Source: a virus
DNA: 46,955 nucleotides
Direction: 5' to 3' (one strand)
IMG/VR virus record: IMGVR_UViG_3300005593_000004
Coordinates: 1-46,955 of that record
In this document: in pieces, positions 12,656-44,076 of the stretch
Position numbering within the stretch: position 1 is the first letter of the stretch
Layout: each line of letters starts with the position of its first letter
Position numbers and translations under genes: made by a program
Notes under the pieces: model-generated
Seen by the model: only the letters and a program-made list of their open reading frames with translations
What the model was told of the DNA's origin: nothing
The model's database searches: none

Positions 12656-12859
12656 TCAGGTCCTGATTGTTTCAAGGACCTTGTCGTGTTGTGTGCCATC
12701 ACCAGAACAAACTACCACGGTGCTGGGCAGGCCACGACGATCAAGGGCAGTGTGAAGATCGGAGGCGAGGTCGGATACGACTTGCCTGACGGCCTCAGTC
12801 TCCTGGGCCTGTTGACAGCGAACTGTCAAGATTAGGTCTTCATGTTGCTTGATTCGCAT
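12656..12859 (-). CDS. Small hypothetical protein at the end of the array
   Basis: A 67-aa protein starting at ATG 12859 behind GGAGGAATCCA, 26 nt after the 78-nt tmRNA-like RNA. It has a helical, charged central part (ETEAVRQVVSDLASDLHTAL) and then LPSTVVVCSG. Codons 11-16 overlap one of the dispersed palindromes. It is soluble with no known motif. It is co-directional with the array but lacks the minihelix leader. Confidence 0.5.
   Translation of the reverse strand: MRIKQHEDLILTVRCQQAQETEAVRQVVSDLASDLHTALDRRGLPSTVVVCSGDGTQHDKVLETIRT
12812..12829. promoter_or_regulatory. Dispersed palindrome within the start of a small gene
   Basis: TTGACAGCGAACTGTCAA has perfect 7-bp arms with a 4-nt centre. 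On the minus strand the centre reads TTCG, so a transcript could fold into a stem with a UUCG loop about 30 nt inside the 12656-12859 gene. It could act as a DNA operator, an RNA hairpin or both. Confidence 0.5.
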
Positions 12860-12885
12860 TGGATTCCTCCATCTTCATTAGGGAG

Positions 12886-12963
12886 TGGAGTAGCGGGGAG
12901 TCGAACCCCGGTCCCAGGGAGTCCGCATGCGGTTGTTTCCCTGGTCGAACCCTTTCCTACCCC
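12886..12963 (-). ncRNA. tmRNA-like RNA: tRNA-like domain without a tag-coding domain
   Basis: A 78-nt element. Acceptor GGGGTAG pairs with CTACTCC over 7 bp, with G3 opposite U (the alanine identity wobble), and is followed by discriminator A. The 5' side continues GAAAGGGTTCGAC, matching the tmRNA D-loop signature GGxUUCGAC, and has no D-stem. A 7-bp helix CCAGGGA/TCCCTGG stands where tmRNA helix P2 stands, but it closes on a 17-nt loop instead of pseudoknots and a tag. GGAC and then T-arm CGGGG-TTCGACT-CCCCG match the tmRNA 3' end. CCA is not encoded (CTCCC follows). It could instead be an aberrant tRNA; no ordinary anticodon arm can be drawn. Confidence 0.6.
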
Positions 12964-13013
12964 GTGGCGGGGAGAGAGCAGCGAGCGAATAAACTCTGCT
13001 CCCTCCCCATGAA

Positions 13014-13268
13014 CTAGCCGACTGGCACGCCGCCCTGGCCCGCTTGGTCTGTCCACGATTCAACGAACGCCCGCCCGAACTGGGTCGCAGCGTCATGCTC
13101 AATCATGGTGAAGACCTCACGAACGTAGGCAGCGGCCAGGCCTGGCATGCCGACAAACGCATTGTCGACCAGGTCCTTGGCAGCGTGAAACACCACCGGG
13201 TCGAACCTGACCTCAGACCTGATACGACGTTCTGCCGTAACCAGGCTCTCTAGCGTGGGTGTGGTCAT
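13014..13268 (-). CDS. Small hypothetical protein with its ribosome-binding site in a hairpin loop
   Basis: An 84-aa soluble helical protein (TLESLVTAERRIRSEVRFDPVVFHAAKDLV, read in parts) with no metal or membrane motif; it ends GQGGVPVG. The ATG at 13268 is preceded by CTGACAG-GAGG-CTGTCAA, where the GAGG ribosome-binding site is the loop of a 6-7 bp hairpin. It is the first gene downstream of the membrane protein at 13294. Function unknown. Confidence 0.55.
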   Translation of the reverse strand: MTTPTLESLVTAERRIRSEVRFDPVVFHAAKDLVDNAFVGMPGLAAAYVREVFTMIEHDAATQFGRAFVESWTDQAGQGGVPVG

Positions 13269-13686: not shown

Positions 13687-13749
13687 TTGACACGGTCGTG
13701 TCAGTCGTCCCTGCCTGGGGGTCGAACCCAGGTCCCTGCCAGTCAGGGG
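13687..13749 (-). ncRNA. Array leader element a: T-arm minihelix plus palindrome
   Basis: Minus strand: P1 CCCTG/CAGGG encloses a T-arm-like hairpin CCTGGG-TTCGACC-CCCAGG, whose loop is a perfect tRNA T-loop. CGA follows, and then the palindrome CTGACAC-GACC-GTGTCAA (13704-13687). It leads the 13494-13655 gene. The segment before the T-arm (ACTGGCAGGGA) could also pair with P1. Confidence 0.65.
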
Positions 13750-13755
13750 TATTAC

Positions 13756-14085
13756 TCAGCCCTCAGCACGACGCTCGTTGAACTCATGCTCAAGTTCTTC
13801 GGCCATCTGCTCAGGGGACCCGTAGGCCCAGCCGCCGTGACCGCCCTCACACTCCCAGCCCTTGGTCCCTGACGGGGCCACCTTTACGGTGATCGGGGCA
13901 CCACACCTTTCTGGATGGTGGGTGTCCCAGGGCCCGTCTGGTTCGGGGTGGGGGACGAGAACGATCATGCTGCAGCCGTTGCGGGCCGATTCTTCGGCCT
14001 GGTCTGCTGCCATGTTGTCGGCTTCGACCTCTGCCCGGTGCTTCTTGCAGCACAGTGGCCAGCGGTCGATGTCGCAGTTACTCAT
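13756..14085 (-). CDS. Cys/His-containing small protein of the array
   Basis: A 109-aa protein. Cysteines C4, C12 and C13, then ERCGAPITV and WECEGGHGGW, suggest metal binding. The central HPEPDGPWDTHHPERCG is His-rich. The C-terminus is acidic and helical (SPEQMAEELEHEFNER). It starts at ATG 14085 behind CGAGGAGGAACCAC. Similar Cys-containing small proteins with a GCPxxV-like core occur in actinophages (from memory). Function unknown. Confidence 0.6.
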   Translation of the reverse strand: MSNCDIDRWPLCCKKHRAEVEADNMAADQAEESARNGCSMIVLVPHPEPDGPWDTHHPERCGAPITVKVAPSGTKGWECEGGHGGWAYGSPEQMAEELEHEFNERRAEG

Positions 14086-14104
14086 GTGGTTCCTCCTCGC
14101 TAGA

Positions 14105-14167
14105 TTGACACGGTCGTGTCAGTCGTCCCTGTCCAGGGCTCGCACCTGGATGCCTGCTAGTCAGGGG
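14105..14167 (-). ncRNA. Array leader element b
   Basis: Minus strand: P1 CCCTG/CAGGG, T-arm-like TCCAGG-TGCGAGC-CCTGGA, CGA, then palindrome CTGACAC-GACC-GTGTCAA (14122-14105). The stem sequence differs from element a by paired changes. It leads the 13756-14085 gene; the ribosome-binding site CGAGGAGGAACCAC follows. Confidence 0.65.
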
Positions 14168-14175
14168 TTCTCCCG

Positions 14176-14682
14176 TCAGGCCGAATACACCATCGGTGTG
14201 CCCTGCTGGGTCGGGAGACCAGTATTGGGGTTCAGGTGCTTCTCCTGCCACCAGAAAGGCATGTCCCGGGGGGCCAGGCCCTCCGGGTAGTCCTCAGTGG
14301 TGAGCCCCATGTAGCGGTCCACGATGCCGTCGATAACAGCCTCCTTCCAGACCTTCACGGAATGGTTGTAGGCAGCAGGGGTCACCTCGCCCCGAACGAA
14401 TGTTTCGTAGTCCGGTGCGGGGGTCCGGTCCATGATCTTCATAACCGTCCAAGTCAAAGCGAACTTGGTTCCATGGTTCGGCAACCCCAGGCGCTCCATG
14501 ACGTAGGTGTAGGTCTCAGACTGAACTGGGACCTTGGTCTTCGCCGCCCCTGAGAGGGGCCCTGGGAAGTCGTTGGGGTGCAGAAGGGACAGCAACCCCT
14601 TGACCAGGGTCCTCAGGACACCCCGATCAACTGTGATCGTGATGTCGGGTCCGGCCGTGGATGTTTCTGGTATTACGCTCAT
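14176..14682 (-). CDS. Hypothetical array protein, 168 aa
   Basis: I start it at ATG 14682, directly after CGAGGAGGAATGCAAA; the longer frame runs through the leader and is not supported. After a short polar N-terminus comes DITITVDRGVLRTLVKGLLSLL, then an alpha-rich body with TYVMERLGLPNHGTKFALTW, YETFVRGEVTPAAYNHSVKVW and MPFWWQEKHLNPNTGLP. It is soluble, with no catalytic motif I recognise. It is one of the two larger proteins in the array. Confidence 0.6.
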   Translation of the reverse strand: MSVIPETSTAGPDITITVDRGVLRTLVKGLLSLLHPNDFPGPLSGAAKTKVPVQSETYTYVMERLGLPNHGTKFALTWTVMKIMDRTPAPDYETFVRGEVTPAAYNHSVKVWKEAVIDGIVDRYMGLTTEDYPEGLAPRDMPFWWQEKHLNPNTGLPTQQGTPMVYSA

Positions 14683-14711
14683 TTTGCATTCCTCCTCGTT
14701 GGTGTTGCTAA

Positions 14712-14774
14712 CTGACACGGTCGTGTCAATCGTCCCCGCCAGGGCCTTGCACCCTGGTGGCTGCTAGTCGGGGG
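14712..14774 (-). ncRNA. Array leader element c
   Basis: Minus strand: P1 CCCCG/CGGGG (covaries with CCCTG/CAGGG elsewhere), T-arm-like CCAGGG-TGCAAGG-CCCTGG, CGA, palindrome TTGACAC-GACC-GTGTCAG (14729-14712). It leads the 14176-14682 gene. Confidence 0.65.
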
Positions 14775-14782
14775 TGGGCGGG

Positions 14783-15145
14783 TCAGCCCTTGCGCTGAAT
14801 CTTCGTGATCCTGGACCGGATGTCTCCAGCCCATGGCATGGATGACACCAGGAGCGGTGGCCCGTCTTCCAGGACGCAGAACGTCCGCACTGAGGCACCC
14901 TTGATGTGGGTGTGAGTCGGGTGGGGGCCGGAGCAGTTGACTGCGGTCCGACCGTCCGGGTCGACCTCTGCTGATTGGAACACCCACCAGCCTCGCTTGC
15001 CTCTGATCCTGAACCTGGTCCCAGGCTCCAGGGGGTACCGGAAGCCCGGGACCTTGACCTGGTCCGGGTACTGGTAACCCTGCGCCAGGCGGGCTGCCTT
15101 GCGGGCTACCTGCTGGCGGCGGATCTCGTTGGTTGCTTTACTCAT
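14783..15145 (-). CDS. Small beta-barrel-like array protein
   Basis: A 120-aa protein. A basic helical N-terminus (NEIRRQQVARKAARLAQG) precedes a beta-rich core with PGTRFRIRGKRGWWVFQSAEVDPDGR, resembling small SH3-like barrel proteins common in actinophages. The C-terminus is basic (SRITKIQRKG), so nucleic acid binding is possible (inference). It starts at ATG 15145 behind CGAGGAGGAACCAC. Confidence 0.6.
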   Translation of the reverse strand: MSKATNEIRRQQVARKAARLAQGYQYPDQVKVPGFRYPLEPGTRFRIRGKRGWWVFQSAEVDPDGRTAVNCSGPHPTHTHIKGASVRTFCVLEDGPPLLVSSMPWAGDIRSRITKIQRKG

Positions 15146-15164
15146 GTGGTTCCTCCTCGCTTGA

Positions 15165-15235
15165 TTGACACGGTTGTGTCAGTCGTCCCCAGCCAGGTCT
15201 CGCTCCTGGTGCCAGCCCTGGGCTGGTCTGAGGGG
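15165..15235 (-). ncRNA. Array leader element d (with central hairpin)
   Basis: Minus strand: P1 CCCC(TC)AG/CTGGGG with a 2-nt bulge, a strong extra hairpin CCAGCC-CAG-GGCTGG, then T-arm-like CCAGG-AGCGAGA-CCTGG, CGA and the palindrome CTGACAC-AACC-GTGTCAA (15182-15165). The extra hairpin stands where a tRNA anticodon arm would be. It leads the 14783-15145 gene. Confidence 0.6.
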
Positions 15236-15239
15236 TGGT

Positions 15240-15596
15240 TCAGTCCACCGTGCCGCCTGTTGGAGGCAGTGTCGGTGATCCCAACCAGTCGGGTGTGGAT
15301 TCGGCTAGCGAAACCGCCAGCGTCCTGGCCTGCTGTGGGCTCAGGTACAGCGTCACACCCACATCGCCGCCGATGTCGACGGCAACGAACGGACTGCTGT
15401 TGTCGAAGTACCTGGTCGTGATCTCAGCCGGGTCGCTGTGCAGCATGTCGGCATGAATGTCGACTGTTGCAAAGCCATCAGAGCGGTCGTCGGGCGCAAA
15501 GTCGTTGACATGGGCAACCCAGGTGTCAGCCCGGACCCGTGTGTTCTTGAACCCGTTGCTGTTGCGACGCTTGTACTCCACCGTTGTGTTACTCAT
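15240..15596 (-). CDS. Array protein, paralogue of the 16509-16856 product
   Basis: A 118-aa protein that lines up with the 115-aa protein at 16509-16856. Shared positions are N-terminal MSxNTTVxYxRRxxxGxKNxxV, a DGxFAxVxIHA core, PFxxxxIGxxV and LxLSPxQAxTL near the end. The beta-rich composition and the conserved hydrophobic ends suggest a small folded domain. The family is not recognised. The two copies are three genes apart, with the same leader type, so duplication came with or into the cassette format. Confidence 0.65.
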   Translation of the reverse strand: MSNTTVEYKRRNSNGFKNTRVRADTWVAHVNDFAPDDRSDGFATVDIHADMLHSDPAEITTRYFDNSSPFVAVDIGGDVGVTLYLSPQQARTLAVSLAESTPDWLGSPTLPPTGGTVD

Positions 15597-15624
15597 TGTT
15601 GGTTCCTCCTCGTTGGTATTGCTG

Positions 15625-15687
15625 TTGACAGGGTTCTGTCAATCGTCCCTGCTCCGGGCTTGCACCGGAGAGCCTGCTAGTCAGGGG
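15625..15687 (-). ncRNA. Array leader element e
   Basis: Minus strand: P1 CCCTG/CAGGG, T-arm-like CTCCGG-TGCAAGC-CCGGAG (a fully changed but still paired stem), CGA, palindrome TTGACAG-AACC-CTGTCAA (15642-15625). It leads the 15240-15596 gene with CGAGGAGGAACCAACA before the ATG. Confidence 0.65.
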
Positions 15688-15694
15688 GGTGTGG

Positions 15695-16024
15695 TCAGCG
15701 GCCACGCCCGATCAGAGCGTCACCAACGGACCTGGCCACCACATGCAGTTCGCTGTCTGCACTGAAGGGGCCCATTTCGTTGACGTACCGGCCCTCCAGG
15801 CTCTCAGTGACCAGCCACCAGATCGGTGTTGGTACCATGTCACGAAGTCCGCTGGTCTCTGCGACCTCCAGGACCGTGTGCGCTGGAATCCAGTGGTCCT
15901 GCGGACCGACCTGGAACCCGGCTGGCGGGGTGGTGCGGTTGTGGCCCGGCACTCCCAGGCCACAGATGATGTCGCCTACCTGGACCGTGGATGCCTTGAC
16001 CGTAATGATTTCTTTCATACCCAT
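15695..16024 (-). CDS. Hypothetical array protein, 109 aa
   Basis: The start at ATG 16024 follows CGAGGAGGAATCAA; a second ATG at 16018 is possible. The sequence begins MGMKEIITVKASTVQVGDII, a beta start often seen in small barrel proteins, then GHNRTTPPAGFQVGP, then an alpha/beta remainder ending VVARSVGDALIGRGR. No metal or catalytic motif. Function unknown. Confidence 0.6.
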   Translation of the reverse strand: MGMKEIITVKASTVQVGDIICGLGVPGHNRTTPPAGFQVGPQDHWIPAHTVLEVAETSGLRDMVPTPIWWLVTESLEGRYVNEMGPFSADSELHVVARSVGDALIGRGR

Positions 16025-16050
16025 TTGATTCCTCCTCGTTGGCATTGCTG

Positions 16051-16119
16051 TTGACAGGGTTCTGTCAATCGTCCCTGCCCCGGGGTTGAACCGGTGGCCC
16101 TGGCCTAGCCAGTCAGGGA
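16051..16119 (-). ncRNA. Array leader element f
   Basis: Minus strand: P1 TCCCTG/CAGGGA (6 bp), central hairpin CTGGC-TAG-GCCAG, T-arm-like CACCGG-TTCAACC-CCGGGG with one A-G mismatch and a perfect T-loop, CGA, palindrome TTGACAG-AACC-CTGTCAA (16068-16051). It leads the 15695-16024 gene. Confidence 0.6.
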
Positions 16120-16135
16120 TTTGATGTGGGTTAGA

Positions 16136-16399
16136 TCAGAGGTAAATCTCCCCGGTGCCATCCCACTCTGAATACGCCTGGAAGGCGAACTCAGTAGCGA
16201 GGTCGTCACGGGTGATTTCGTTCAGCGTGTAGGGCTCCCAGGCGACGCCGTTCACCTCGCCCTGGAAGGAGCCCCGGCTTGCGTTGAACTCCTCCAGCCA
16301 GGTGATGAGCGGCTGCTGGACACCGTCGATTTCGACCCGAACGCCTGCATGGCCTTCCGGTGAGATCGGGGTGTACCGAACGGTTGCGTTGATCCTCAT
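16136..16399 (-). CDS. Hypothetical array protein, 87 aa
   Basis: The start at ATG 16399 follows CGAGGAGGAATACAGAC; the longer overlapping frame is a shadow of the gene upstream. The protein begins RINATVRYTPISPEGHAGV and reads as a small alpha/beta domain with ITWLEEFNAS and a conserved-looking acidic C-terminus (SEWDGTGEIYL). Soluble, no motif recognised. Confidence 0.6.
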   Translation of the reverse strand: MRINATVRYTPISPEGHAGVRVEIDGVQQPLITWLEEFNASRGSFQGEVNGVAWEPYTLNEITRDDLATEFAFQAYSEWDGTGEIYL

Positions 16400-16428
16400 G
16401 TCTGTATTCCTCCTCGTTGGTATTGCGG

Positions 16429-16498
16429 TTGACAGGGTTCTGTCAATCGTCCCCAGCCCGGTCGTGATCCGGGTGCCAGCCCTGGGCTGGTCTGGGGG
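16429..16498 (-). ncRNA. Array leader element g
   Basis: Minus strand: P1 CCCCAG/CTGGGG, central hairpin CCAGCC-CAG-GGCTGG, T-arm-like CCCGG-ATCACGA-CCGGG, CGA, palindrome TTGACAG-AACC-CTGTCAA (16446-16429). The loop keeps C at position 3 and a purine at 4 but has C, not A, at 5. It leads the 16136-16399 gene. Confidence 0.6.
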
Positions 16499-16508
16499 TG
16501 GTCGCCGG

Positions 16509-16856
16509 TCAGCGAATGATGCGCTGGCCGTCAACCGACTCGCTGTCCAGAGCCCGCTCCAGGAGACCCAAGAGGGTCTCGGCCTGGTCCGGGGAGAGGA
16601 ACAGCGAGGACGAAACGCCGGTGCCAATGTTGATGGTGTAGAACGGCTGGTACTTGTCGTCGCCGTGATCCGTGACGCTGAGGACAGCGTCACCGTTGTG
16701 GGTCCTTGCGTGGATGCTGACAGAAGCGAAAGAACCGTCGACCTCGTCGCTGCGCTTCTCGTCCATGTTTACCCGGTACTCGTCATTGACGACGGTGACG
16801 TTCTTCCAGCCCTTCGCTGTGCGACGGCCGTACTTCACTGTTGTGTTCTTGCTCAT
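16509..16856 (-). CDS. Array protein, paralogue of the 15240-15596 product
   Basis: A 115-aa protein, clearly related to the 118-aa product of 15240-15596 over its whole length (MSKNTTVKYGRRTAKGWKN, then VDGSFASVSIHA, then LFLSPDQAETLLGLL). The more acidic C-terminus differs. The ATG at 16856 follows CGAGGAGGAACCAC. No family is recognised. The duplication within one array suggests either diversified partners or dosage. Confidence 0.65.
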   Translation of the reverse strand: MSKNTTVKYGRRTAKGWKNVTVVNDEYRVNMDEKRSDEVDGSFASVSIHARTHNGDAVLSVTDHGDDKYQPFYTINIGTGVSSSLFLSPDQAETLLGLLERALDSESVDGQRIIR

Positions 16857-16875
16857 GTGGTTCCTCCTCGTTGTG

Positions 16876-16938
16876 TTGACAGGGTTCTGTCAATCGTCCC
16901 TGCCTGGGGCTCGCACCCAGGAGCATGCTGTTCAGGGG
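16876..16938 (-). ncRNA. Array leader element h
   Basis: Minus strand: P1 CCCTG/CAGGG, a short AGC-AT-GCT element, T-arm-like CCTGGG-TGCGAGC-CCCAGG, CGA, palindrome TTGACAG-AACC-CTGTCAA (16893-16876). Only 8 nt separate it from GAGGAGG, too little room for a promoter -10 box plus a leader. It leads the 16509-16856 gene. Confidence 0.65.
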
Positions 16939-16944
16939 TGGGGC

Positions 16945-17781
16945 TCAGGCCCCGTCGTTGCTGTCCGCCCAGGTGGGTGGGTAGTGGTCCCAGAAGTCCA
17001 CCTGGTCGCCGTCTTCGGTCGACCAGAAGCCGTCTTCGACACTGTCGTCGGCACCCAGGTGGAAGTACCAGAGGGTGTCTGGACACTGTTCGCCGTCCCT
17101 GGGGAGCCGTCGGTACTGGCCCTCACAGCGGCCACAGACCAGCGGGGCAACTACGCCCCACTGAACATGGCCGAACGTGATCTCACGGCAACCGCATCCG
17201 GTGAGGATGCGCTTGGGCCCAGGTGTGATCGTTCCGTTCCTCCGTTGGCCTTTGCAGACCTTGAGAGTGCGGAGCCAAATCAGCCTGGTCGTGTACTGAA
17301 GGATGGTCTCGTCAGAGAGCCTGACAGCGGAGTAGCCGATGGTCGTGTCCGGCGGGTATGGGAACCCACTGAACAGACCCAACTGCTCGTCCACCAGGGT
17401 CGGCCATTCAAGACCGACCTCTTCTGCCAGGGCCTTGAACCGCTTGTTGTGATACCGGTTCTGCCTGGAGCAGTCCTTGATCTTCCGTGCATGGGCCAGC
17501 CCGTGGGCTGCCTCATGGAGGAGGGTCTGGAGGACCTGCTCCGCACCTCCGGCAAAGCATTCACCGGAGATCATCACTTCGGGTGCCTGGGTGTCATCCA
17601 CTGCCCACTCAGAGTAGGAGTAATGACCCAGGACCGTTCCTCTGCGGACCCGGCCCGTCGACTTGACGACCAGGAACACATCGGGAACGTCCGGGTGGTT
17701 GGCCTGGATGGCCCGCCAGGTGTCATTGAGCACCTTGGTGGTGACATCAGAGACCTGGACGTTGGTGTGTTTGTTGTGCAT
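16945..17781 (-). CDS. SprT-like zinc metallopeptidase
   Basis: A 278-aa protein. TLLHEAAHGLAHAR contains HEAAH (89-93). A downstream YHNKRF (H111 region) is the usual partner motif of SprT-like/minigluzincin phage proteins. A C-terminal zinc ribbon has CGC at about 196-198 and CGRC at 216-219. In cells, SprT-like enzymes cut DNA-bound proteins; in phages this family is common and its target is usually unknown. It may clear proteins from phage or host DNA (inference). It is the largest array gene. The start at 17781 lies behind CGAGGAGGAACC. Confidence 0.75.
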   Translation of the reverse strand: MHNKHTNVQVSDVTTKVLNDTWRAIQANHPDVPDVFLVVKSTGRVRRGTVLGHYSYSEWAVDDTQAPEVMISGECFAGGAEQVLQTLLHEAAHGLAHARKIKDCSRQNRYHNKRFKALAEEVGLEWPTLVDEQLGLFSGFPYPPDTTIGYSAVRLSDETILQYTTRLIWLRTLKVCKGQRRNGTITPGPKRILTGCGCREITFGHVQWGVVAPLVCGRCEGQYRRLPRDGEQCPDTLWYFHLGADDSVEDGFWSTEDGDQVDFWDHYPPTWADSNDGA

Positions 17782-17797
17782 GGTTCCTCCTCGTTGG

Positions 17798-17866
17798 TTG
17801 ACACGGGTGTGTCAATCGTCCCTGCCCTGGTCGTGATCCAGGGTGCCCGGCTGGCCGGGTCAGGGG
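17798..17866 (-). ncRNA. Array leader element i
   Basis: Minus strand: P1 CCCTG/CAGGG, central hairpin CCCGGC-CA-GCCGGG, T-arm-like CCCTGG-ATCACGA-CCAGGG, CGA, palindrome TTGACAC-ACCC-GTGTCAA (17815-17798). Its T-arm loop equals that of element g although the stems differ. It leads the SprT-like gene. Confidence 0.65.
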
Positions 17867-17878
17867 TGTGGATGTGGG

Positions 17879-29519: not shown

Positions 29520-32500
29520 GCCTTGGCTTGATCGACCGGAATATCCAAACGCTTCGGCACATCGACGGGTCGTGGAGTCTGCCTGAGATCCCTGATGCTG
29601 TCCGGTTGGACTTGGCGACGTTGCCGGGGATCGGCCCAGCGAACATCGAAAGTTTGCTTTATGGGATGGAAAGCGAACTGGAGGTTGCTCAGGCTCCGAT
29701 CCCGCAACAGATCGACGTTCAGGACGTTGACGTTGCCCAACTGGATTTGCAGCAGGCGGAGCAGCCAGAGCAGCCAGACCCAGAACCGATGAACGAGTTC
29801 CTGACCCGTTGGTATGGCGGGGCGTTGATGGGTGGCCAGGGACGCCCCCAGGAGTTGGACCCTGACGCTGTCCGGTTGTGGAAAGAGGAGGCTGTCCGCA
29901 AGGGGTATGTGGAACTGACACCTGAGCAGATGGCGGACCCTCGCTGGTTCCCGGAATACAACGTGGTGAATCGTCGTATGGCGTCAGACCGGTTGACAAG
30001 CGGGTTCACGGGTGGCCGTGAGGGGGCTTTGAGCATAGAGGAAACCGCCAACATCTTCGACAACTTCGCACCGTCTGGGCTGATGCGAGCCATGACAGAG
30101 TGGGATCTGTTGATGGATTACGACAAGATCGCTCACGAATGGGACGACTGGATCCCGAAATACAAGCGGCTCCTGTACCACCTCCAGGCAATCCCTTTGG
30201 TGCCGGACAGTGGGATCCTGATGCTCCCGCCAGGGTTTGAGGCAGCGGGCCGGACGTATACGACAAGAAAAGACCCTTCGCCGGATAGTTCCGACGGCGG
30301 GTACGCCTCCTGGAAGACTCCCATAGCAATACTTGACGCCTTTACGGGTCCAGTAGACGACGTTGCTCTACCAATATTGAACTGGATAGTGATTATCGGT
30401 GGTTTGGCCGGAGTCGGCGTGGGTATTGGAGGGCTGCTGGCCGGGGCAGCGGTGATGCAAGGTACCGGCCTATTCCGGTTCCAACAGTCAATAAGGACGG
30501 GTTTACAAATGCATCGAATGGGCCCGGTGGGTCGGGCGTTTATTACAGATCAGCCGTTCACTGCGGTCCCCGGTCTGAGGGGTGCCCAGTACGGTGCCCA
30601 GGGTGTCCAGGGTGCGACCCGGTTGACCAACTTCGGCAGGCCGTCCGGCTTGGGCAGTTGGATGACAGGCGCAATGAGCAAATCCACCCGTTTTGGTGGC
30701 CGAATGGCCGCACCAGCCCAGTCAGTCGGGCGGGGGATGCAAGCCTGGAGAAACACCAGAGCAATCCAAGCAGCCCGGTTGATGAACCAACAGTTGGTGT
30801 GGCGTCCCGGCCTGATGGCCAGGGGCGAGTTGGCGACCGGTCACGGCGGAGACATGCCCGGCGAAGGAGGCTGGTCTCTCAACGAGGTCGGCATCGTCCA
30901 GGATCTCCGCCAGCAGTACGGGTACTTCATGAACCCGGACGGGACGATCAACAAAACCAACTTCTTGGGGGACATCGCCTACGACATCCTGTTCACCCCG
31001 TACACGATCTTTGAGCCCGGCACCTTCAAATCGGTGATGCGAGGGTTCCGCTTGGTCGGCCACCAGGGTGCCAGGGCGGCTTCAGCGATGTTCCCGTTTG
31101 TTCGCCGCCGGTTCGCAGCGTTCGGAGAGTCGGGTGGTCGGGCTACCAACGCCATGTACGACGCTATGACCGACTACCTGCGCCGCAACCCTAAAGGGGA
31201 CGAGCGGTTCCCCCAGATGTCGAAGGACTTTGAGAAGACCGCCAAGGAAACCAGCCTGGACAACGCCTTCGTTGAACACTTCTTCGCCGGGGACAAGGCA
31301 GTGTGGGGTAAAGCGAAACTGTGGCACTTTATGACCTTCGGTATCGAACACGCAGCCCGGCAGGCGGCCAGGCTCATGGGGGTGGAGCCACACGAATGGT
31401 CGCCGCTGTATAAAGCAATCGAAAACAAGTTGTACGCACAAATCCATCCCCTGGACCCGCATGACGCCATGGAATACATCGCTCATGTGTCCCGGGACGC
31501 TACGAAGACAACAGTCACCGGGGCCAGGAGCGACGCTGACGCTGTCGCCATTATGCGCCGCCAGTTGCTTGAACAGACCCTGGAATCACCGCAGACAACG
31601 GGGCTCAGAGGGACATCTGTCGGCAAGGGGTACGTCCGTTTAGTGGAGGAAATGGACCCGGAAAGCGGCTGGACGTATTGGAGGAAGTTGCGGCAGGGCG
31701 AAACCCCTGCCGGTGGTGCAAGGATCACAGACGTAAACATTGAGGAGTTGGCCGCCGGTCGGGGCACCAGCCTTGATGAGGCTAGGCGTTTCCTAGACGA
31801 CCCGTTGGAGGAAGGGGTGCAGGGCCTGGTTCTCCCACCAGGGTTTGAGGGAGCGCACCGGACGTTCACCTGGACTGAACTGACGACCGGTAAGGCACGA
31901 CGGTGGGACCCGGCGAAGATCAAGATGTTCTGGGACCCTGAGGTTATTTCCGAAGGTAAGAAGTACCGGGGGATTGTCCATAACCACAACGACGCCAGGG
32001 ACGCCACCATTATGGAGGTAGTCAACAATCTGGAAACTGGCAGCCCGGCGTTGACAGAGGCAATGCAAGGTCGAATCCCGCAAGTCTCAGGGCTCCCTAC
32101 CCAGGCTCCCCGTGTGCAGGGGGCCTTCGGGGACCTCCCGGCGGTGATGGAAGGTTTGACCGACGATGTGTTGGAACGGTTGACGAACTGGTCGGCGTTT
32201 GAGCAGGCGTCCACTGAACTGCATGACGCTGTGGCCCGTGGCGGCCTGGCGGACGCTTTCTACGAGAAGGCCCTGTCGGACAGTGGCCGCCGACTCAACC
32301 TGTTCCCGTTCGCCAAGGACCATGCCACTGGCCGACGTACCCCCCTCCCCTATGGGGGGCATCTGCTGGGGTATGCGGTCGACAACATCGACTACAACTA
32401 TGTGACCTGGATCAACAAAGGCATGTATAAGCCACTGGTGCGGTCCATCGACCCTGGATGGGGCCGGGTCACGTTGGCCCGGTTGGGTTCGGTAGTCAAA

Positions 32501-39430: not shown

Positions 39431-41460
39431 TGGCTGTTACGCCTGACGGCAGGATTTTCGCCCCGATCTTCGTAGGGCAGACAACTGACGACCCGGCGAC
39501 TGTGGCGGCTATGGCCGCTGATCCGAACACCAAGTTTCACCCTGAATACATCATGTCTCATGGTGGTGGGTGGAGGGATCCGTTCACTGATGAGCGGATC
39601 GGCGGGGTGCAGGACAGGTTTGGGGTTACGTCCAACTGGTCAGCCGATCCGGCTCACCAGTTTGAGGGGTTCAACGAGGCGGGTGAGCCGGTCAACCCGG
39701 ACGGTTCCCCCCGGAACCCGATGGTGGTGAATCAGAACATCACCCGGACTATCGGGGATACTTCTGGTTTCCTGGATGAGGCCACCAGGATTCAACAGGC
39801 GAACATAGCCAGCCACCGTGCGAGGACTCCCCTGTTGGGGCTGGAGGACATGGGGATAGACACATCTGGCTTCACCGCCCAGGAGCAACTTGCTTGGACG
39901 AATCTATACAACCAGGGTAACGAGAATCTAGTCACCACCAGTTCGACGTTAGGGGACAGGGCCCGTGGTGGCCGTCTGGGCATGAACCCGTGGGAGGTCC
40001 TGGCCCAGGTCATTGAGATAGCACTTGAGGATTTCGGTCAGAGTGCCTTGACCGCCCCGATCACTGAGGCGGATGTGGACGGGTGGTCTGAGCGTATCGC
40101 TGCCAAAGGGACCGAATATCTACAGTTCAAGGAGGCCCGAAGCATCCGATCCGACATCCTGGAATGGCGGGTCGGGGACGATGCGCTGATGACTAAATAC
40201 GGGGTGACCGAAGAACAGGTCGGTGCCCTGATGGGCCCCACCGGGGACATCAAACATTTCAAGAACACCGGGGATGTCATCACCTACGACGCTGCGGACG
40301 TAACCCAGGTGTCGACGGTTCTCCCAACCGGGGAGGTAATCCAACCCCCCGAAGATGTCGCCTACGACGAGGCCATGGGGTTCATCCTGGAGCATTACCC
40401 GTGGGCTGAAGGCCTGGGGTTGATCGACATGATCGTGGAGGCCGTGGAAGCGGGCACTGACGCCAACGTCTTGTTGGCGAAGATCCGCAACACCCCGCAG
40501 TGGAAGGCCACCTTCCCGGCGATCAAAGACGACCAGGGCCGGATGAGGTTCAAGAACGAGAACGATTACATCACCCGTGTCCGGGATTATCAGGAGGTTT
40601 TGCGGGACGCCGGGATGTTGAACGAAGCCACGGAGAACCCGTTGGACTATGCGGCTCTCATCGAACGAGGCATAGACCACACCGAACTGGCTTCACGAAT
40701 CAACGAGTACCAGACCCTTTCCGAACACAGCGTGGGGGTTCGTGCAGCGTTCCGGGTGTACGCCAACATGGACGTTTCCAACGACCAGTTGTACCAGGCG
40801 ATTATTGACCCGGAAGCGTCAGAAGCGTTGATAGAGGAATACAACCGGAACATCTTGTCGGCGGATTTCTCCTACGAAGACTTCGTGGCCCGGGCTACCG
40901 ACTTCTCCCTACAGGCCGCCTTGGAAACCATCTCCAAAATGGAAATAGATGGGACTGTTCCCACTGGGACAGTGGCCAGGATTCGTGGCTTGGATACCGA
41001 CCAGGCCCAGGCGCTGGTGGAGGCCCTGTATTTGGGGGACTCAGCCGACGGTGAGGCGTTCCTGGACTTGGACGAGATAGTCCAGTCTGTCCAGTACGCC
41101 CTCATTGGCGGTGCCGCTGAGGAGCAGGGTTTGGTGGCACCTTCGTTGGAGCGTGTCAAGGAGATAAGAAGCGCCGGGATAACGAGAGCGAAGGCTTTGA
41201 CAGCCTACGGTCAATACGCCAACCAGGGTGACCTGATGAACTCCATGATCTCCAGGACGAACATGACTTCTGACAGGTTCACTCAACAGGACTTTGAGGA
41301 AGCACAGTTCCTGGCCAGGCCAGAGGAAACCGACCTGCTAGTGAGAGGCGTCCAGGCCGAACAGTCCTTGGCGGCTCCTTCTGGCCAGTTCAGTGTGGCC
41401 GGTGGCCGGGGTGGACGGCTGGTGCAGCCTGGTCGAAAGGGGCCCGGCGTCCGCTATTGA
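39430..41460 (+). CDS. Large virion-region protein, 676 aa
   Basis: It starts MAVTPDGRIFAPIFVGQTTDD, with TAATG overlap of the preceding gene. A mixed alpha/beta N-terminal region contains WRDPFTDERIGGVQ. Long helical parts follow (ARGGRLGMNPWEVLAQVIEI, then VEAGTDANVLLAKI). It is the last gene of the first late operon part; a promoter and operator follow before the scaffold. Structural role likely, family unknown. Confidence 0.5.
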   Translation: MAVTPDGRIFAPIFVGQTTDDPATVAAMAADPNTKFHPEYIMSHGGGWRDPFTDERIGGVQDRFGVTSNWSADPAHQFEGFNEAGEPVNPDGSPRNPMVVNQNITRTIGDTSGFLDEATRIQQANIASHRARTPLLGLEDMGIDTSGFTAQEQLAWTNLYNQGNENLVTTSSTLGDRARGGRLGMNPWEVLAQVIEIALEDFGQSALTAPITEADVDGWSERIAAKGTEYLQFKEARSIRSDILEWRVGDDALMTKYGVTEEQVGALMGPTGDIKHFKNTGDVITYDAADVTQVSTVLPTGEVIQPPEDVAYDEAMGFILEHYPWAEGLGLIDMIVEAVEAGTDANVLLAKIRNTPQWKATFPAIKDDQGRMRFKNENDYITRVRDYQEVLRDAGMLNEATENPLDYAALIERGIDHTELASRINEYQTLSEHSVGVRAAFRVYANMDVSNDQLYQAIIDPEASEALIEEYNRNILSADFSYEDFVARATDFSLQAALETISKMEIDGTVPTGTVARIRGLDTDQAQALVEALYLGDSADGEAFLDLDEIVQSVQYALIGGAAEEQGLVAPSLERVKEIRSAGITRAKALTAYGQYANQGDLMNSMISRTNMTSDRFTQQDFEEAQFLARPEETDLLVRGVQAEQSLAAPSGQFSVAGGRGGRLVQPGRKGPGVRY

Positions 41461-43554: not shown

Positions 43555-44076
43555 ATGAGCGCACCTGATGTCATCGACTCCAAAGAATGGGGTGTTGTAG
43601 CCACCGTTGAGAAGTGGAATGTTGCTTCTGACCGGGCTAAAGGGCTCCCCCCGAACGACACGGTTTCTGTTGAGGACAATCTTCTCCTGAATGGGGGGAT
43701 TGCGGACCTTCTGAACAGCCTCTGCGGCCTGGCTTCTCCGGCTGTTTACGGCACGGCTAGTTATATCGGGGTGGGTACCAGCACTACGTCTGCCCTTGCA
43801 ACCCATACGGGGCTCCAGGCGGGTACCAGTGAACGGTCTTACAAGGCGATGGAGTCGGCCTCGTTCCCATCCCTGGCGGGTCAGACGATGACCTGGAAGT
43901 CTGTGTGGGGTTCTGCTGACGGCAACTTTGCCTGGGAGGAGTGGAGCATCCGCAGTGCCACCAGTGGCGTTGGTGGGGAAGATACCGGTACGGCCCTGAA
44001 CCGTAAGGTGGCCTCTCTGGGCACGAAGGCTTCGGGCTCAGAATGGACTCTGACGGTAACGATCACGGTTTCATAG
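43555..44076 (+). CDS. Virion structural protein, 173 aa
   Basis: I start it at ATG 43555 with GAGGACACT upstream; an earlier ATG adds six residues through the promoter-like sequence. It contains EWGVVATVEKWNVASD, LLLNGGIADLLNSL and YIGVGTSTTSALATHTGLQAG. This last motif is typical of phage proteins around tail fibres (GxGTxxxAxxxxxTxLxAG). Likely a fibre or tail component. Confidence 0.6.
   Translation: MSAPDVIDSKEWGVVATVEKWNVASDRAKGLPPNDTVSVEDNLLLNGGIADLLNSLCGLASPAVYGTASYIGVGTSTTSALATHTGLQAGTSERSYKAMESASFPSLAGQTMTWKSVWGSADGNFAWEEWSIRSATSGVGGEDTGTALNRKVASLGTKASGSEWTLTVTITVS

Follow-up and report, generated by a model that had tools for sequence, protein, structure and literature searches.

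Genomic context of the element

The window, by which we mean the whole 46,955-base IMG/VR virus record that was analysed, carries genes for a terminase, a portal and a major head protein. On its minus strand, a 78-nt element occupies the gap separating two short open reading frames of 84 and 67 amino acids (Table 1). ARAGORN detected no tRNA genes in the window, the window proteins scanned included no recognisable integrase, and no terminator-like site was found near the element. A second IMG/VR contig (L051), 99.95% identical over 6,070 nt, has the same element.

Read on the minus strand from position 12963 to 12886, the element has the sequence GGGGUAGGAAAGGGUUCGACCAGGGAAACAACCGCAUGCGGACUCCCUGGGACCGGGGUUCGACUCCCCGCUACUCCA. 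It divides into the segments GGGGUAG GAAAGGG UUCGAC CAGGGA AACAA CCGCAUGCGG AC UCCCUGG GAC CGGGG UUCGACU CCCCG CUACUCC A. The last C of the D-loop region (12944) takes part in P2 pairing. CCA is absent from the encoded element, and ACUCC comes next in the DNA.

Table 1. Features of the element and its surroundings (window coordinates).
Feature	Position	Strand	Description and support
TLD-only tmRNA gene	12886..12963	minus	78 nt, acceptor G1 to discriminator A73; Rfam RF00023 56.4 bits, model R1 76.4 bits
Acceptor stem 5' strand, GGGGUAG	12957..12963	minus	G3 = 12961; 7/7 pairs with 12887-12893
Acceptor stem 3' strand, CUACUCC, with discriminator A (12886)	12886..12893	minus	U70 = 12889; sequence and R1
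D-loop region, GAAAGGG-UUCGAC, tmRNA-type	12944..12956	minus	RF00023 alignment; GG before UUCGAC kept in relatives
P2 5' strand, CCAGGGA	12938..12944	minus	7 bp with 12914-12920; covarying in relatives
P2 3' strand, UCCCUGG	12914..12920	minus	its final G opens GGAC
Inner hairpin, CCG-CAUG-CGG	12923..12932	minus	caps P2 where the message domain would be; 3 bp covarying in relatives
T-arm, CGGGG-UUCGACU-CCCCG	12894..12910	minus	5 bp; RF00023 alignment, R1, covariation in relatives
Upstream ORF	13014..13268	minus	84 aa; without family match
Downstream ORF	12656..12859	minus	67 aa, GGAGG ahead of start; without family match
Strong hairpin just upstream of the element	12969..13008	minus	fold of 12860-13013; without T-run
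GGGACGA 3' ends of the minihelix array	13711, 14129, 14736, 15189, 15649, 16075, 16453, 16900, 17822	minus	

The element is a tmRNA tRNA-like domain lacking the message domain

The Rfam tmRNA model RF00023 matched the element with 56.4 bits (cut-off 47, E 1.4e-19) in an alignment that spans model positions 1-374 and skips the middle of about 302 nt corresponding to the message domain. The first-pass annotation had proposed a tmRNA tRNA-like domain (TLD) without message or pseudoknots, to be checked with Infernal against the tmRNA and tRNA models. This was borne out, as the tmRNA model matched above its cut-off and the tRNA model RF00005 gave no match even at E 1. The alanine-type acceptor that it had described was confirmed as well, with the G3:U70 pair at 12961:12889 inside the 7-bp stem and the discriminator A at 12886. 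A covariance model (R1), for which 19 phage sequences other than the window element served as training set, assigned 76.4 bits to the element (E 3.3e-18), while the next-best place in the window reached 16 bits.

The element is a complete tmRNA TLD whose message domain is missing. Like bacterial one-piece tmRNA (RF00023), it has an acceptor with G3:U70 and A73, a D-loop with GG-UUCGAC, P2, GGAC and a T-arm. In contrast to that RNA of about 370 nt, it measures about 80 nt, closes P2 with a small hairpin and has no message domain, resume codon, tag, stop or pseudoknots. No tag reading frame was found in the 81 nt at the element, and the P2 strands are separated by no more than a 17-nt loop that includes a single small hairpin. 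An ordinary tRNA was rejected: besides the missing RF00005 match at E 1, ARAGORN made no call at the element, and the element has no cloverleaf with an anticodon arm, the tmRNA-type D-loop and P2 being present instead. A permuted or two-piece tmRNA was likewise set aside, as the two halves stand in native order and RF04321 had no match in the window. The folding energy of the element was unremarkable (z -1.5), so that the case for it rests on comparison.

TLD-only RNAs form a broad family in phages

A scan of IMG/VR for TLDs in which 15-45 nt stand where the message would be returned at least 120 loci. A pairing filter reduced these to 97 clear TLDs, 77 of them distinct and mostly 78-80 nt long; loci that failed to pair in acceptor, T-stem and P2 were regarded as chance matches to the pattern and set aside. 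UUCGAC, GGAC and the T-loop are fixed by the pattern, and conservation of these three was left uncounted. G3:U70 and discriminator A were not imposed. Before any model was built, they were present in 76/77 and 77/77 sequences, respectively, and the sole sequence lacking G3:U70 is nearly identical to another one but misses a few acceptor bases.

A search of 99 sources with R1 gave 100 matches, 92 of them distinct, so the family has at least 92 members. The 99 loci, nearly all viral, fall into 58 unrelated contig groups, a nucleotide clustering that may not equal independent phage lineages. The strict pattern was found at no fewer than 120 viral loci, compared with eight in the genomes of 84,980 bacterial and archaeal species. 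Half of these eight (L126, L127, L130 and L131) scored at least 67 bits with R1, and at least three of the four real loci lie beside phage-type genes: L126 and L127 adjoin head or terminase genes, and L130 adjoins tRNA genes and a phage-family glycosyltransferase.

A scan free of the D-loop sequence, which imposes G3 and U70 and in which both were left uncounted, yielded 86 elements with good acceptor and T-stem. UUCGAC was present in 53; the rest were mostly close D-loop variants (GGUAUCGAC, GGUUUUGAC and similar), and a few belonged elsewhere, for instance to the 3' ends of ordinary tmRNAs. RF00023 matched above cut-off in 47 of 50 carrier records, each time over about 72-85 nt and never at full length. 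ARAGORN tmRNA calls in two contigs (L015, L100) were rejected, since they fuse unrelated upstream DNA to a TLD-only element. One phage contig (L069) holds two different TLD-only elements, at 5-81 and 1317-1392, the first with a degenerate T-loop.

The TLD-only structure is maintained by compensatory changes

In the R1 alignment of the 92 distinct sequences, 97.8% of cells in paired columns were paired, compared with 66.4% in shuffles, and the covariation score was 0.702 against 0.130 (sd 0.009) in shuffled alignments. This signal was lost when partner columns were slid by 1-3. As the R1 alignment is fitted to the model, a MAFFT alignment of the 19 founders served as a second measure and gave 97.9% pairing and a covariation score of 0.644 versus 0.132. 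Independently of any model, contiguous P2 pairing fell from 5.77 pairs to 0.85 once strands were exchanged between sequences. Each of the four helices shows compensatory changes, and across the family the message is replaced by a short P2 closed by a small hairpin. Conservation of the D-loop, GGAC and the T-loop is partly imposed by the search pattern. The G3:U70 wobble, the major alanine identity element, was present in 92/92 relatives, whereas acceptor pairs 4-6 next to it change freely and in a compensated manner. The TLD-only element is a structurally conserved RNA and no remnant.

Carriers and gene context

Cultured carriers, recognised by R1 or by full-length alignment, are the Streptomyces phages Shaeky, GiJojo, BRock, LuckySocke and pSt2308, Stenotrophomonas virus Jojan60 and Pontimonas phage phiPsal1. 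Their records have no annotation or a hypothetical protein at the element. The Shaeky copy is 80% identical, unannotated and flanked by annotated tRNA genes. In GiJojo (PP725410), a hypothetical protein gene (gene 44, 17023-17265) overlaps the TLD-only element and is probably a misannotation. The element lies inside tRNA clusters in several phages, and many carriers, the window included, are without detected tRNA genes in the stretches of DNA covered.

An SmpB gene was found in 0/50 carrier records, many of which are fragments, and none of the 50 contained a full-length tmRNA. Any function must therefore use the AlaRS, EF-Tu, SmpB and processing enzymes of the host. No neighbouring gene family recurred in more than 5/58 clusters, suggesting that the element acts without a linked phage partner.

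The searches also revealed other unannotated RNAs. Microbacterium phage Quenya (41347-41435; L136 1939-2027) and related Dismasvirus records carry a derived message-less TLD just before tRNA-Gln, with G3:U70 present, an altered D-loop and a longer middle. A tRNA-like T-arm element lies at about 30772-30847 of the Lactococcus skunavirus jm2 (L134 1962-2037) and scored weakly with R1 (17 bits); Lactococcus phages made up 225 of the 389 phage records matched by one TLD query. In Acinetobacter phage BUCT628, a permuted tmRNA was found at about 39452-39666 (L278 1469-1683; RF04321, 123.9 bits).

Comparison with known message-less and phage tmRNAs

The tmRNA of mycobacteriophage DS6A was listed as 'TLD only' in 2014 (Hudson et al. 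2014, PMC4131195). It is the only phage TLD-only example named in the 2025 tmRNA database paper, which covers a curated collection of 97,179 sequences and mentions one such phage form in its text (PMC11915505). Like the element, DS6A tmRNA is phage-encoded, has little beyond the TLD and lacks a tag frame. Compared by description only, DS6A is a single case in these two papers, from a different phage, and has been treated as an oddity, whereas the family of the element is broad, diverse and covarying. The kind is already known from DS6A; the window element is a new member of it, and the breadth of the family is new. This breadth, like the covariation and the constancy of the alanylation signal, is undescribed in the open-licence literature searched, and a subscription paper could hold more.

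Message-less tmRNAs of jakobid and oomycete mitochondria and of Mallomonadaceae plastids also keep the TLD and have no tag frame (PMC11915505, PMC4131195). In oomycetes SmpB is supplied by the host from its nuclear genes, and a host-supplied SmpB is what we propose for the element. The likeness is again one of description, and these are genes of cellular organelles while the element is viral. Full-length tmRNAs of Mycobacterium phage Kumao, Gordonia phage Forza and Streptomyces phage BillNye are phage-borne like the element and often lie beside tRNA genes, but those of Kumao and Forza comprise about 400 nt with a message domain, a clearly separate length class.

A possible antagonist of host trans-translation

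Trans-translation is nearly universal in bacteria, and the dealings of phages with it are poorly known. The tmRNA-specific D-loop and P2 are contacted by SmpB or lie next to it. The element keeps both, together with the alanylation features G3:U70 and A73, and has lost those features needed to complete trans-translation. Competition with host tmRNA would be the simplest reading of what is retained and what is lost, and phages probably use the TLD-only gene to interfere with the bacterial rescue of stuck ribosomes. With confidence somewhat better than even, we regard the element as a dedicated phage RNA gene for an alanylated, message-less tmRNA that antagonises host trans-translation; that it is expressed and processed, becomes charged, binds SmpB, competes and benefits the phage is what we infer.

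The transcript would probably be trimmed in the manner of a tRNA and then receive CCA from the host. The trimmed RNA would be charged with alanine via G3:U70, and the resulting Ala-TLD would bind host SmpB and EF-Tu. This complex would enter stalled ribosomes instead of host tmRNA, or might merely sequester SmpB. Having no resume codon, tag or stop codon, the element would be unable to finish trans-translation, so that the net effect during infection would be antagonism. The decoy role suggested in the first-pass annotation agrees with the literature on DS6A. According to PMC4131195, a DS6A-like TLD-only molecule strongly inhibits tmRNA whether chargeable or not, and PMC11915505, citing Mao et al. 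2009, places this inhibition by the DS6A form in E. coli.

Blocking trans-translation is not obviously good for a phage, because some phages need it; the plating of lambda immP22, for instance, drops about 10,000-fold on hosts mutated in ssrA or smpB (PMC2862035). Moreover, PMC4131195 reports inhibition with or without charging, so that the strictness of G3:U70 exceeds the needs of simple titration and could point to a productive role. A tentative alternative, which we consider possible though clearly the less probable one, is a tag-free rescue helper: the charged TLD would enter non-stop ribosomes with host SmpB and move the nascent chain onto alanine. In this reading the ribosome would then pass to another release route (ArfA, ArfB or RQC), and phage proteins would be spared SsrA tagging. 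The strict G3:U70 suggests a need for charging. Mitochondrial tmRNAs without a message occur together with SmpB targeted to mitochondria and are believed still to assist with incomplete mRNAs (PMC11915505). For some phages ribosome rescue is required, the tag hardly at all (PMC2862035). However, the one experiment on a phage-type TLD-only RNA cited in PMC11915505 showed tmRNA inhibition, there is no known route by which a helper would finish rescue, and no linked release factor was found in the 58 clusters. The conserved G3:U70 and A73 and the position inside tRNA clusters in several phages would also suit an anticodon-less alanyl-tRNA mimic acting outside trans-translation as alanyl donor or bait. 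This is unlikely, since a plain alanine minihelix needs neither the tmRNA-type D-loop (GG..UUCGAC or near variants) nor P2, both of which are kept, and many carriers, among them the window, are without detected tRNA genes. The partner of such a mimic would be AlaRS, an enzyme using aminoacyl-tRNA or a defence protein that attacks tRNA.

Origin by decay is far less probable still. As ssrA is a common integration site, the element might be an internally deleted captured ssrA or an attP-type fragment left by integration, such as the isolated ssrA-like 3' end beside the integrase of phage Milly. In contrast to the Milly end, both TLD halves are present, paired and covarying in the element, which led us to reject an attP fragment. 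The collapse of P2 pairing on partner swap, compensatory changes in four helices, lengths clustering at 78-80 nt and the lack of a recognised integrase among the window proteins scanned argue against any non-functional remnant. Least probable of all is one piece of a split or permuted tmRNA with the message encoded elsewhere in the phage. Two-piece tmRNAs do exist in phages (PMC9004378), and Rfam finds one in BUCT628, but here the halves form one short RNA in native order, closed by P2, and the window and 14 carrier loci gave no permuted or other tmRNA match above cut-off.

Extending the antagonist reading to the family, we find it fairly likely that a broad and long-maintained class of phage RNAs controls host ribosome rescue, charged but message-less, displacing host tmRNA and acting with no phage protein partner. 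It is to the same degree plausible that these RNAs are RNA-only antagonists of, or tag-free substitutes for, trans-translation. That the family was overlooked because standard gene finders search for a message and DS6A passed for an isolated case also appears reasonably probable. The family would account for a class of short tmRNA matches skipped by annotation pipelines. What had been an oddity becomes a phage strategy open to test, now that at least 92 distinct TLD-only RNAs are known from 58 unrelated contig groups and have kept the alanylation signal; Shaeky, GiJojo, BRock, Jojan60 and phiPsal1 are cultured carriers for such tests.

A neighbouring array of T-arm minihelices

An array of nine T-arm minihelices extends over window positions 13688-17870 on the minus strand, one upstream of each small gene in the run. 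In each unit, a P1 of 5-6 bp stacks on a T-stem of 5-6 bp; the loop has 7 nt and the linker 11 or 17-18 nt. The unit is followed by GGGACGA, a TTGACA-N5-TGTCA palindrome and the gene start. The helices total 11 bp in eight of the nine copies, and copy 16075 was poorer in scripted pairing. The first-pass annotation had considered the T-loops of the array to be related to the element, which found no support: R1 recognised T-arm positions only, in 1/9 copies (14.8 bits), and Rfam returned nothing convincing on the array. Judged by these sequence searches, shared ancestry is not supported, and a generic T-arm is all that is common to both. A piece of about 40 nt resembling one array copy lies between early genes in at least 16 Streptomyces phage records, among them the Camvirus-type phages phiScoe44 (43599-43639), Kaine and Alsaber (L003, L197), and the array element is thus shared with phages other than that of the window.
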